IMG/VR virus record: IMGVR_UViG_3300027969_002550
Span: 1-36,171 of that record
Direction: 5' to 3' (one strand)
Source of the DNA: a virus
Length of the DNA: 36,171 bases
Shown here: positions 15,784 through 36,171 of the stretch, in pieces
Numbering within the stretch: position 1 is the stretch's first letter
Layout of the letters: each line of letters opens with the position of its first letter
Notes under the pieces: generated by a model
What the model was told of the DNA's origin: nothing
Seen by the model: the letters and a program-made list of their open reading frames with translations, nothing else
Databases searched by the model: none
Translations under genes and position numbers: made by a program

Positions 15784-17301
15784 TTAACTCTGTTGATTAA
15801 CTGCCTTGCGGCGTGCTCTCATATCAGCTATGTATTCCACATGTGAACGATTTTGACCATAACGCTGTGTCATCGCCTGTTGATGATCATAGTAGGCCAG
15901 CTCTTGAGCAAATAGATCGTCTGGATTGTGCATGTGTTGAACACCATCAAACAGTCCTAGCCCGCCCATGACCCACGAGTAAAGACTCCATCCGGCAACA
16001 CCCCAATACCTGGGAAAGTCATTGCTGTTTAACAGTCTTGCTTGTGCTGTGGTCACTAGAGTTTTAACAAAGTCTGTTTGGGTAGCACCACTAGATATAT
16101 AACGCCAAAACTCTGAGTCAGTTCTACCACCCTGATAGTGCATGACCAAGAAGTCTTTGAGGTCGTCTATCTGACGACTCCAGCGTTGATTGTATAACGT
16201 AATAGTACCCGGGTTCAGAGTGGTTTCTACGTGATCAGTTATGTATTCTGTAAACAGCATCTTGATCTGCACAATACTGGTATGTATGCTGGTGGCTTCT
16301 AGCGGCTCTAGAAAACTTGAGCTGAGCCCTATGCTCACACAGTTGTCAATCCATGCAGCTGACTGTCGACCCGCATCAAAGGGTATGATCTTGATAGGCG
16401 TAATCTTACGGCCTAACTGCTGTTCAATTTCTGCTTGGGCCTGCTCATCTGTGACGTGATCACTAGAGTACACATAGCCGTTGCCCTTGCGATCCAACAA
16501 GGGGGTGGTCCACATCCAACCATTTTTCTGGGCATGGGCTGTGGTCCAAGCTTCGGGCTGCTCACCCTCTTGATACTGCTCTTGAAAGGGCATGCCACGA
16601 TCCACGGGTAGCCACTGCTTGTAGCTGACCCACTTGGCACCCATCTCTTTGATTAGGAGTCTAGCAAAGCCCGTGCAGTCAATGAATAGATCACCCTCTA
16701 GATCATCGCCATTGGTCAGGGTTAATGCTGTGATCCTACCCCCGGGGTCTCTTGTAATTTTAGACACTTCGCTGTCTACCAATCGACAGTTGGCATGTTT
16801 GAGCCCATGCTGTTTGAAGTATTCTCCAGTCAGTCGCCCGTCCACATGCAGGGCATGTCCGTGAGCCATGAACTGGCCCTGCTGTGACATGTTGCTGAGC
16901 CCATGGCGCATGAGCCAACCCGTATGGCTCACTGTGATCCTATCCTCACTGCTCAACTGACTGAGAGCATATTCAAACTGACGGTCTCTAGGGTCAAACT
17001 GTGTGGAGCTGCCGTCTAAGGGTGCTAGGTAGCTGGTACCCACAGTACCCCAGTCTTTGTGATGTATGCCCAGCTTGCAGGTGGCCCCTGTCTTGATCAT
17101 GAAATCGTCGTGATCCACCCCCATGGCTCTAAGATCGTTGGTCATAACGTCAGTAAAGAACCCTGTGGTGCTTTCACCCACGCCAATGATACCCACCTTT
17201 GAGCTTTCTATAACTGTGTAGTCATGTGAGCCAGCATGGGCCAGACCCAATATGGCAGTGAGCCATCCTGCTGTACCACCCCCTACTATTACTATTTTCA
17301 T
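15784..17301 (-). CDS. FAD-dependent tryptophan halogenase family protein
   Basis: This 505-residue flavin-dependent halogenase has the FAD motif GGGTAGW (7-13), the catalytic lysine (K76 in TGATCKLGIHHKDW), the WxW signature in NGWMWTTPLLD (W262, W264) and the conserved glutamate E335 in FLEPLEATSIH. The key residues are intact. These enzymes use FADH2 from a separate reductase and hypohalous acid to halogenate tryptophan or related aromatics. Similar genes are known in marine cyanophages, where the substrate is unknown. ATG 17301 is preceded by GAGGAAA and a possible late promoter at 17319-17326. Confidence 0.9.
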   Translation of the reverse strand: MKIVIVGGGTAGWLTAILGLAHAGSHDYTVIESSKVGIIGVGESTTGFFTDVMTNDLRAMGVDHDDFMIKTGATCKLGIHHKDWGTVGTSYLAPLDGSSTQFDPRDRQFEYALSQLSSEDRITVSHTGWLMRHGLSNMSQQGQFMAHGHALHVDGRLTGEYFKQHGLKHANCRLVDSEVSKITRDPGGRITALTLTNGDDLEGDLFIDCTGFARLLIKEMGAKWVSYKQWLPVDRGMPFQEQYQEGEQPEAWTTAHAQKNGWMWTTPLLDRKGNGYVYSSDHVTDEQAQAEIEQQLGRKITPIKIIPFDAGRQSAAWIDNCVSIGLSSSFLEPLEATSIHTSIVQIKMLFTEYITDHVETTLNPGTITLYNQRWSRQIDDLKDFLVMHYQGGRTDSEFWRYISSGATQTDFVKTLVTTAQARLLNSNDFPRYWGVAGWSLYSWVMGGLGLFDGVQHMHNPDDLFAQELAYYDHQQAMTQRYGQNRSHVEYIADMRARRKAVNQQS

Positions 17302-34385: not shown

Positions 34386-34616
34386 ATGAACAAAACAAAT
34401 GAACTAATACAATGGGCAGGGACAGCATTCATTTTAGCAATGTATGTGATTTCCAACTTCTTTCCAGGCTACGATGACCTGCGCAATTCAGTGGCCTTGG
34501 TAGGTGCTGCCTGCTTCTTTGCATGGAGTTATCGTGTGGCCAACAAGCAACAGATGATTATCAACGGTGTAGCAATAGTCCTATGTGTTGTAGGGTTATT
34601 GAGAGCAGTCGGTTGA
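34386..34616 (+). CDS. Small membrane protein, 76 residues, probably leaderless mRNA
   Basis: ATG 34386 is only 6 bases after the -10 box, so the mRNA begins at or next to the start codon. The frame is open to 34347, but that lies upstream of the promoter. It has membrane helices (AGTAFILAMYVISNFF; VALVGAACFFAWSY; MIINGVAIVLCVVGLLRAV). No ribosome site. Stop TGA 34614-34616 lies in the next -35 box. Confidence 0.75.
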   Translation: MNKTNELIQWAGTAFILAMYVISNFFPGYDDLRNSVALVGAACFFAWSYRVANKQQMIINGVAIVLCVVGLLRAVG

Positions 34617-34641
34617 CACATTGACGTTTTGGCGATATAAT
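34613..34641 (+). promoter_or_regulatory. Sigma70-type promoter for 34675 gene
   Basis: TTGACA 34613-34618, TATAAT 34636-34641, spacer 17. Confidence 0.88.
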
Positions 34642-34674
34642 AGACACATAGCAACAAACAAGTAGGAGAACACA

Positions 34675-35124
34675 ATGGATTATGACAACATGGTAGACAC
34701 ACAAAAGGGCATGGCACAGATGCTGGGCAAGACCTTTGTCAAGGTGACTGGATCTGTTGACAGCGACGAGATGCTGTTTGAAACCGCAACAGGTGAGCGG
34801 TTCTTGTTCGCTCATCAGCAGGACTGCTGTGAGACTGTGAGAATCAACGACATCGTTGGTGACCTCGAGGACCTGGTTGGCGCACCTTTGTTGGTTGCTG
34901 AAGAAGTCAAAGGTGCTACTGAGCCAGACGAAGAGCACTATGAGAGCTATACCTATACCTTCTACAAGTTCGCTACCCGCAAGGGCTATGTGGATGTGCG
35001 TTGGTTGGGTGAGAGCAACGGCTACTACTCAGAGAGTGTGGACCTGTTCGTAGAGGGTGTGGCAGTGGCACAAACGCCACAGACCAGTCTAGGAGAATTG
35101 CTCCGTGAGAAATTAAACGGTTGA
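34675..35124 (+). CDS. DUF7448-like phage protein, 149 residues
   Basis: The family pattern is clear to me: MLGKTFVKVTGSVDSDEMLF, FAHQQDCCETVRINDIVGDL, EDLVGAPLLVAEEV, YTFYKFATRKGYVDVRWLG and SNGYYSESVD. It is common in phages and bacteria, with no known biochemical role. Complete, with AGGAGAACAC upstream. Its TGA stop (35122-35124) is in the -35 of the ncRNA promoter. Confidence 0.83.
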   Translation: MDYDNMVDTQKGMAQMLGKTFVKVTGSVDSDEMLFETATGERFLFAHQQDCCETVRINDIVGDLEDLVGAPLLVAEEVKGATEPDEEHYESYTYTFYKFATRKGYVDVRWLGESNGYYSESVDLFVEGVAVAQTPQTSLGELLREKLNG

Positions 35125-35149
35125 CAGTTTGGAAGATTGGTGCTACAAT
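35121..35149 (+). promoter_or_regulatory. Sigma70-type promoter for putative ncRNA
   Basis: TTGACA 35121-35126, TACAAT 35144-35149, spacer 17. Transcription would begin near 35156. Confidence 0.85.
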
Positions 35150-35155
35150 AGATAC

Positions 35156-35373
35156 ATAGACAGTTAGGAAAGAGTTAGAGGTTACCTAGACCACTAGGCG
35201 ACTGGGATGATGACAGTACCGACGGGCGCTGGTCAAGTCCAGGAGCATGAAACAGGCGCAAGCCGGACTTGCGGTGGACAATCTAGGAGTAATGACCGTG
35301 CAGGCCTACGTGAGACGTTTGCGTATGGTAGAGATAGATGCACAATGGTTCCTTTAGTTCTTTTCTAACTGTC
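35156..35373 (+). ncRNA. Structured non-coding RNA candidate, about 218 nt
   Basis: A promoter precedes a stretch with no supportable gene. Bases 35159-35181 pair with 35351-35373 in 23 uninterrupted pairs, four of them G-U, so the RNA ends close on each other. Inside are CCTAG-ACCA-CTAGG (35185-35198), CAAGTCC/GGACTTG (35234-35240, 35265-35271) capped by GGC-GCAA-GCC, a GNRA tetraloop hairpin, a bulged GACAGT/GCTGGTC stem (about 35211-35234), and ACGT-GAG-ACGT near 35308. I do not recognise the family; tRNA, tmRNA and RNase P signatures are absent. The wobble pairs favour RNA over DNA palindrome selection. A chance frame of 53 codons (35207-35368) ends inside the closing stem and lacks a ribosome site. 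Confidence 0.75.
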
Positions 35374-35383
35374 CATAACTAGG

Positions 35384-35412
35384 TTGACAACTAGCCAAAT
35401 TAGTTGTATAAT
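35384..35412 (+). promoter_or_regulatory. Sigma70-type promoter with spacer inverted repeat
   Basis: TTGACA 35384-35389, TATAAT 35407-35412, spacer 17. ACAACTA (35387-35393) and TAGTTGT (35401-35407) bracket the spacer. Confidence 0.87.
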
Positions 35413-35446
35413 AGACACATAGCAACACACATTAGGAGCGACCCAA

Positions 35447-35830
35447 ATGGCCAAAGTAAATTATGATGCATTCGCCTCGTTTGACATTAACGAGTGCTGT
35501 GACCACTTTGACAGTGAGAAGCAGAGCAACTGGAAGAAGATCGGCAAGTTCATAGTGGCAGATGGACAAGAGTACGCCCACATTATGGAGTCAGAGTTTG
35601 ACTTTGAGGATGTAGGTTCAGGCGAGTACGAGGCCTTCCAAGCAGGCGTCAAGTATGCCCTTACCAAAATGAACATTGCCTTTGAAGCCGCCGCAGTGGA
35701 CCTGCAGGTCTGCGAGGTGGACTTGGTAGAGAGCATGGGCTTTGTGCTGGTACGTGCAGATGACGAGCCCGAGGACTTTGTGAAACGGGTTATGAAGAAG
35801 CCTGTCATGATGGTTGACAGCTGGGTATAA
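35447..35830 (+). CDS. Hypothetical acidic protein, 127 residues
   Basis: AGGAGCGACC precedes ATG 35447. Starts MAKVNYDAFASFDINECCDH and is acidic throughout, with FDFEDVGSGEYEAFQAGVKY and helix EDFVKRVMKKP at the end. No domain recognised. Confidence 0.75.
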   Translation: MAKVNYDAFASFDINECCDHFDSEKQSNWKKIGKFIVADGQEYAHIMESEFDFEDVGSGEYEAFQAGVKYALTKMNIAFEAAAVDLQVCEVDLVESMGFVLVRADDEPEDFVKRVMKKPVMMVDSWV

Positions 35831-35837
35831 AGACCCT

Positions 35838-35863
35838 AGGGCCCCTAAGGGCTCTTGCTTTTT
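35838..35863 (+). terminator. Rho-independent terminator
   Basis: AGGGCCC-CTAA-GGGCTCT (7 bp with one G-U) followed by TGCTTTTT. Confidence 0.8.
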
Positions 35864-35865
35864 GG

Positions 35866-35894
35866 TTGACAGTTTGGCGAAACGATCGTATAAT
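35866..35894 (+). promoter_or_regulatory. Sigma70-type promoter for two mini-membrane genes
   Basis: TTGACA 35866-35871, TATAAT 35889-35894, spacer 17. Confidence 0.88.
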
Positions 35895-35921
35895 TAACAC
35901 ATAGCAACAAAGGAGCACAAC

Positions 35922-36035
35922 ATGCTTAAATTGATTGGTTTTTGTTTTGTGATCTACTTGGGTTGGATTACCGGCCTGATCCAAACTGTCTTGTTGGTTG
36001 TGGCTGGTGTGTTAACCACGATTGCGGGCGCCTAA
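35922..36035 (+). CDS. Mini membrane protein, 37 residues
   Basis: ATG 35922 follows AGGAGCACAA. It is almost wholly hydrophobic with GWITG (about 14-18) in the middle. The final TAA overlaps the next ATG by one base. Below the usual gene-calling length but with promoter, ribosome site and coupling. Confidence 0.7.
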   Translation: MLKLIGFCFVIYLGWITGLIQTVLLVVAGVLTTIAGA

Positions 36036-36115
36036 TGTCAGCGGCCTACATATGGGGTTGGATCACAGGCATTGGCTTGATCGTGGGTGTCACATTAGGC
36101 CATCTTTTTGGTTGA
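36035..36115 (+). CDS. Mini membrane protein, 26 residues
   Basis: MSAAYIWGWITGIGLIVGVT, one membrane helix. It shares GWITG with the preceding mini-protein. Its TGA stop 36113-36115 is part of the next -35 box. No separate ribosome site, so it would depend on coupling. Confidence 0.55.
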   Translation: MSAAYIWGWITGIGLIVGVTLGHLFG

Positions 36116-36140
36116 CACTTTGGCTATTTGATCGTATAAT
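36112..36140 (+). promoter_or_regulatory. Sigma70-type promoter for gene starting at 36166
   Basis: TTGACA 36112-36117, TATAAT 36135-36140, spacer 17. AAAGGACAC and ATG 36166 follow, and the gene runs off the window after two codons. Confidence 0.88.
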
Positions 36141-36171
36141 AAACACATACACACAAAGGACACACATGAAG

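Follow-up and report, generated by a model that had tools for sequence, protein, structure and literature searches.

The tRNA cluster of phage T4 holds the stable non-coding RNAs C and D, which have no known function and are smaller than the RNA described here, and HK022 put and Bacillus EAR are structured, promoter-proximal antitermination RNAs. Elaborate non-coding RNAs of phages are few. The best known of them, GOLLD and ROOL, which are encoded near tRNA islands and form RNA-only cages, are still without a function (PMC12286853). In the case of 16S rRNA, folding and maturation are helped by boxA and by a long helix that flanks the RNA (PMC10250234).

Here we analyse a virus fragment of 36,171 nt (IMG/VR record IMGVR_UViG_3300027969_002550, positions 1 to 36,171; the window) in which positions 35159-35373 are, judged by fold, covariation and reading frames, a gene for a non-coding structured RNA of about 215 nt and not for a protein. 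By its homologues this RNA is a member of an uncatalogued family of jumbo tailed phages, carried on contigs of up to about 380 kb.

Results

Promoter, fold and parts of the RNA

A preliminary description of the window, made from its letters, had pointed out at this locus a promoter with a 17-bp spacer, ends that pair over 23 bp, a GNRA-capped helix and the lack of a supportable gene, and had proposed an undescribed, promoter-driven, phage-specific structured RNA. Each of these features was recovered, and the proposal is strongly supported by covariation, by the lack of an Rfam match and by the lack of coding. The promoter consists of TTGACA (35121-35126), 17 bases and TACAAT (35144-35149), with 11 of 12 consensus letters, and the predicted transcription start at about 35156-35157 lies 2-3 nt 5' of the closing stem P1. 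In the predicted fold 35159-35181 and 35351-35373 form 23 consecutive pairs. The minimum free energy of 35150-35380 is -80.9 kcal/mol, as compared to -62.0 ± 4.6 kcal/mol in 200 dinucleotide shuffles (z -4.2), none of which was as low; this comparison had been suggested in the preliminary description. The features, all on the + strand, are:

35121..35149, + strand: sigma70-type promoter, TTGACA-17-TACAAT (sequence; same promoter at the same distance in stand-alone relatives)
35159..35181, + strand: 5' strand of the closing stem P1, ending in conserved AGG (fold, own versus swapped duplexes in 13 P1 clusters, pair counts)
35180..35198, + strand: conserved GGUUACC-UAGA-CCACU-AGG (alignments), containing J1/2 (UUA) and the 5' strands of P2a (35185-35189) and P2b (35191-35195) (C-G/G-C/U-A/A-U swaps in P2)
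35199..35246, + strand: P3, an irregular, variable hairpin, with apical CC-GACG-GG (35219-35226) and basal CUGGG/UCCAG (35202-35206 with 35238-35242) (alignments, folds)
35247..35251, + strand: near-invariant joining strand AUGAA (alignments)
35255..35264, + strand: P4, the GNRA-capped hairpin GGC-GCAA-GCC (GNRA caps with changing stems in relatives; pair changes)
35271..35287, + strand: conserved GCGGUGGA..CUAGG, with the 3' strands of P2b (35273-35277) and P2a (35283-35287) (alignments, pair counts)
35288..35295, + strand: near-invariant junction strand AGUAAUGA, leading to P5 (alignments)
35296..35348, + strand: P5 domain, outer CCGUGCA/UGCAC-AAU-GG (35296-35302 with 35339-35348) (folds, alignments)
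35314..35318, + strand: conserved loop GACGU of the P5 inner hairpin (inner-helix covariation; loop co-variation with the P3 loop)
35351..35373, + strand: 3' strand of P1 (fold, swap test, pair counts)
35384..35412, + strand: separate promoter of the next gene, TTGACA-17-TATAAT (sequence; begins 11 nt after P1)

The promoter at 35384..35412 argues for the RNA being an independent gene rather than the leader of the gene at 35447-35830. The window contains no terminator 3' of P1, so that a separate mature RNA would need processing, and the fragment carries no second copy of the RNA. The surrounding region (34616-36171) is an early region built from short gene cassettes; a near-consensus TTGACA-17-TATAAT promoter stands immediately before each of them and abuts the preceding gene. 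Elsewhere in the window, at 15784-17301 on the - strand, lies a tryptophan-halogenase-like gene (PHROG 2928, E 1.8e-102).

Homologues and distribution

Homologues were obtained from 160 loci of related phage contigs (up to 383 kb), reached via the neighbouring proteins encoded at 34675-35124 (a PHROG of unknown function) and 35447-35830, and BLASTN revealed divergent copies of the RNA in these loci. The conserved motif AGGTTACCNANNCCGNTAGG occurs in at least 120 stretches in IMG/VR, most of them real members and a minority chance matches in other DNA. A covariance model built from 21 members (model 1) gave 93 matches of 31 to 204 bits in 100 sources, i.e. the window and 99 fetched loci, and 46 matches in 100 further loci, some of the matched loci overlapping or sharing a contig. 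Model 2, built from 30 diverse members, behaves like model 1; the score of the copy on a GOLLD-bearing contig rose from 43.6 to 93.1 bits, though this copy was among the training members.

Homologues are found at more than 100 IMG/VR loci, usually as a single copy per phage contig. Exactly one copy is present in 16 of 20 large phage contigs, or in 9 of 13 when only those fetched via a neighbouring protein are counted, and since four related large contigs have no detectable copy the RNA is not universal in the lineage. Locus L253 carries two different copies in tandem (90-286 and 316-517, - strand) in one tRNA array. Among cultured phages the relatives are jumbo phages, for example PA5oct and Phosso (shared protein, 43-44% identity).

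The Rfam covariance models, which the preliminary description had proposed to run, matched 35159-35373 with no family of Rfam 15 at gathering or permissive thresholds, the only matches being two chance snoRNA matches far below gathering; a tRNA-like or rRNA-like fragment was rejected on the same ground. BLASTN against 50,697 phage records returned the promoter only (S-RIM2 cyanophages) or chance words. The covariance models found no match in the named jumbo and T4-like phages examined, where more than 2 million bases of phage records were searched under stricter filters that may lose weak matches. In the genomes of 84,980 bacterial and archaeal species, a scan for exact matches to a single strict sub-pattern, which the window's copy does not match either, found none. 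The RNA is described nowhere in the open-licence PMC literature searched.

The fold is kept through sequence replacement

The covarying fold is a branched junction, in which P1 is followed by P2, carrying P3 and P4, and then by P5. P1 is about 20-24 bp long and closes a conserved multi-branched core. Across the family GGUUACC leads to P2, which consists of two short helices, CCNANN and CCGYU; P4 is very variable in length and often GNRA-capped, a simple scan finding such hairpins at this place in 37 of 65 distinct cores; the loop of P5 is usually GACG(U/G), and GUUCC then returns to P1. The single-sequence minimum free energy fold places a competing hairpin at the P4 site, but the recurrence of GNRA caps in relatives supports the GNRA-capped helix as real.

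In alignments that were fitted to the covariance model and hence lean towards it, 93.5% of the pair cells of the whole fold are paired, as compared to 75.4% in shuffles, a value that none of 500 shuffles reached. Both sides have changed in 27 of the 36 pairs, with 347 such cells versus 98 in shuffles, and the covariation score is 0.43 versus 0.15 (0 of 500). Sliding the register lowers the paired cells to about 36-56%, and in a diverse subset of 30 members 93.0% of the cells are paired and 28 of 36 pairs show double changes. The apical part of P3 shows covariation in all five modelled pairs.

The closing stem was assessed independently of the model fit by exchanging P1 strands between sequence clusters (54 distinct strand pairs in 13 clusters). 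Own duplexes have a mean of -18.6 kcal/mol and exchanged ones of -5.9 kcal/mol, a comparison in which the 3' strand of a few members was picked by best pairing and a few clusters (e.g. L009, L192) pair over a short inner part only. The preliminary description had looked to compensatory changes in this stem, and they are present: homologues keep the pairing through wholesale sequence replacement, which settles the reality of the stem. In L009 the core is 94% identical to that of the window over 177 nt and P1 and the flanks differ; by this comparison, the core is portable.

Stop codons interrupt all three forward frames in 63 of 65 distinct homologous cores and core lengths vary modulo 3, so the open reading frame at 35207-35368 is not conserved.

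The loop types of P3 and P5 vary together, 47 members combining GNCG with GACGK and five GGCA with GAUGCG, with no mixed cases. This suggests a loop contact, within or between molecules, for which the evidence is weak as the members are related and the pairing would span 2-3 bp only.

Stand-alone genes and tRNA arrays

The family occurs in three settings: stand-alone, in tRNA arrays, and in tandem with another small RNA (see below). In the stand-alone setting, that of the window's own copy, which has no boxA, 29-30 nt separate the end of the -10 box of a near-perfect promoter from the inner GG of P1, and transcription is predicted to begin at P1; the window's promoter and spacing (30 nt) recur in L007, L011, L076, L185, L191, L214, L219, L224 and L252, among others.

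Many other members head a phage tRNA array or are placed close to its head, with the promoter about 87-105 nt upstream. A tRNA is located within 500 nt of 40 of 68 distinct members, often 20-60 nt downstream, and 34 of 67 distinct upstream regions contain an rRNA-type boxA (GUUCUUUAAAA and variants) in the 450 nt before the RNA, against an expectation of 0.007 per region, both fractions coming from a sample biased by loci fetched with the RNA motif itself. The boxA, a motif to which the rRNA antitermination factors of the host bind, is mostly positioned 61-74 nt before the inner GG of P1. Many of these members have, directly next to P1, a hairpin that is often GNRA-capped and whose 3' strand continues into the 5' strand of P1 (own pairing -12.5 versus swapped -6.6 kcal/mol); it could be a folding switch while P1 forms. 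The layout of promoter, rRNA-type boxA, hairpin, long P1 helix and tRNAs resembles that of an rRNA operon. In L206, L221, L248 and L272 the RNA is placed after one or more tRNAs.

As an observation in its own right, rRNA-type boxA motifs occur in the leaders of phage tRNA arrays (L163, L184, L187, L206 and others), suggesting that these phages borrow host Nus-factor antitermination for tRNA transcription.

Other RNAs near the family

A second RNA, independent of the main one, promoter-driven and about 88 nt long, lies in the same early locus of relatives and has the sequence AAGGCGAUCCUCAAAUGUAAGAACCCAGC..GCAAAAAGGGUUGUAACCAAGGGAUACGAAG..GAGUUU.GAGACUC..GCCU; the window has none. It is found at L218:3792-3886, L265:1335-1427, L005:9835-9925, L007:9841-9929, L054:9620-9707 and others, either by itself or as the upstream partner of the main RNA in a tandem, with a mean column identity of 84% and paired changes from AACCC/GGGUU to GACCC/GGGUC and from GAUCC/GGGAU to GGUCC/GGGAC. 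No Rfam family matches it. Since this small RNA gene, which also occurs alone, forms the upstream neighbour of the main RNA in L009, L265, L054 and other loci, it is less likely that the core is a domain of a longer RNA.

A third conserved non-coding element lies 3' of the main RNA (L265:1630-1762, L009:1004-1107, L172:3149-3287, L191:11462-11561) and shows an apparent pseudoknot, e.g. GGGUCA-AUCAUGGUG-UGACCC..CCAUGA; the L265 and L172 copies have no Rfam match. Phage-encoded tmRNAs are located near the main RNA at L178:3466-3806 and L174:3106-3624 (both on the - strand), and both also match the permuted tmRNA model. At L206:7981-8445, and likewise in the L210 and L047 records, there is a GOLLD RNA with an embedded tRNA-like stretch. 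L206 and L210 have it in one tRNA array with the main RNA, about 1.4 kb further downstream, and in the L047 record the main RNA is not detectable.

Discussion

The RNA is probably a stable, trans-acting phage RNA that is released from its transcript via the P1 helix and acts during infection, a reading that builds on sequence comparison. Transcription would start at P1 or read through from the leader of a tRNA array, and P1 would pair once its 3' strand emerges, shielding both ends. In a role analogous to that of the leader-trailer helix around 16S rRNA, P1 would offer cut sites to host nucleases, namely RNase III, together with RNase P at the next tRNA. A phage RNase III was rejected as the processing enzyme since none of 19 related phage contigs encodes one; host RNase III and RNase P would thus process the RNA. 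The freed, compact RNA would then act in trans during infection, and its likeliest target would be the translation machinery, given the frequent co-location with phage tRNAs behind boxA. A role in trans agrees with the presence of one copy per genome, with a core that is portable and with transcription in two unlike settings. More tentatively, and at somewhat less than even confidence, the family may represent a new class of trans-acting structured RNA that giant phages make from units which, like an rRNA operon, line up promoter, boxA, leader hairpin, long leader-trailer helix, structured RNA and tRNAs. Host enzymes of rRNA and tRNA processing would release it, and during takeover it would act on the translation or transcription of the host. 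A Y RNA working with a phage Ro protein was rejected, the 19 related contigs containing no Ro (TROVE) gene while the control carrier was positive; this leaves room for a host-encoded Ro.

An element acting in cis would also suit the usual place near the promoter. The main rival, with a lesser but real chance, is processive antitermination or transcript protection as by HK022 put or Bacillus EAR, in which the nascent RNA would act on its own polymerase so that neither Rho nor terminators stop the transcription of long untranslated tRNA arrays. Like RNAs of this type the RNA is structured and promoter-proximal, with a strong promoter usually within about 100 nt; boxA is found just upstream in the tRNA-array members, and the RNA is often the first element ahead of the tRNAs. 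In the window and several other stand-alone members, however, no more than about 15 nt separate the RNA from a promoter that belongs to the next gene, which leaves little for antitermination to act on, four loci place the RNA behind tRNAs, and put RNAs are smaller and less conserved than the core.

A homo-oligomer in the manner of the ornate RNAs GOLLD and ROOL, which would form as a multimer through intermolecular contacts of the GNRA and GACG loops, is rather improbable. The setting in phages and tRNA islands is the same, one tRNA array holds both the main RNA and GOLLD, and the joint change of the P3 and P5 loops suggests contacts within or between molecules. Yet the RNA has about a third of the size of GOLLD and ROOL and matches neither in sequence or by model, and the loop pairing would span 2-3 bp only, with a co-variation that is weak evidence among related sequences.

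Even less probability attaches to a 6S-type RNA that binds RNA polymerase in trans for an early takeover of host transcription. Its own early-type promoter, closed ends and compact structure agree with such an RNA; a fold with several branches and invariant junction strands, GNRA and GACG loops that suggest tertiary packing, the tRNA arrays of many relatives and the missing Rfam 6S match do not. A 5' leader or riboswitch of 35447-35830 has very little left to recommend it beyond the RNA lying directly upstream of that gene in the window, being largely refuted by the gene's own promoter after P1, by L005, where RNA and gene are about 6 kb apart, and by the tRNAs or other genes that follow the RNA in most other members. 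A chance hairpin or a small protein gene at 35207-35368 is refuted by covariation beyond all 500 shuffles and by the stop codons in homologous cores, and is virtually excluded.

The family is compact, very well supported by covariation and easily detected by a covariance model, and its size suits cryo-EM and probing. The tRNA-array and boxA ties of many members give concrete hypotheses, namely rRNA-style processing, NusB/S10 recruitment, and ribosome or RNA-polymerase binding.

Comparison with known systems

The covariance model of the main RNA found no match in T4. HK022 put and Bacillus EAR differ in size and sequence, and stand-alone members of the family precede no long untranslated unit. 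With 6S RNA the RNA shares paired ends that close the molecule and a promoter of its own, but its core is multi-branched, where 6S RNA, which binds RNA-polymerase holoenzyme and templates pRNA, is a single long irregular hairpin whose central bubble mimics an open promoter, and many relatives reside in tRNA arrays; membership fails on the Rfam model and on architecture. Of the comparisons drawn in the preliminary description, that with 6S-like RNAs thus falls as family membership, though the RNA may act on RNA polymerase, and the likeness to phage-specific structured RNAs stands.

Tied to its tRNA-array members is the likeness to pre-16S rRNA, with boxA upstream, a long helix closing a structured RNA, and tRNAs downstream (compare PMC10250234), although the enclosed RNA is not rRNA and stand-alone members, the window's included, have no boxA. 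Like GOLLD (RF02032), the RNA is phage-borne, structured and often near tRNA islands (PMC12286853), and the two share the L206 tRNA array. GOLLD differs in its 416-position model, its length of up to more than 800 nt and its conserved sequences; its model (gathering 150 bits) has no match in the window, the L206 GOLLD is a separate locus, and GOLLD occurs in 2 of 19 related phage contigs, one of them without the main RNA. ROOL is likewise a non-coding RNA of phages and prophages near tRNA islands (PMC12286853), but with about 660 nt it is far longer, and the Rfam ROOL model does not match. The trait that GOLLD and ROOL have in common, encoding by phages near tRNA islands, is shared by those 40 of 68 distinct members, the window's copy being stand-alone. 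The tRNA-array setting of many relatives points towards an RNA of the GOLLD/ROOL kind, and 35159-35373 is best called a new family within the broad kind of structured phage non-coding RNAs associated with tRNA islands.
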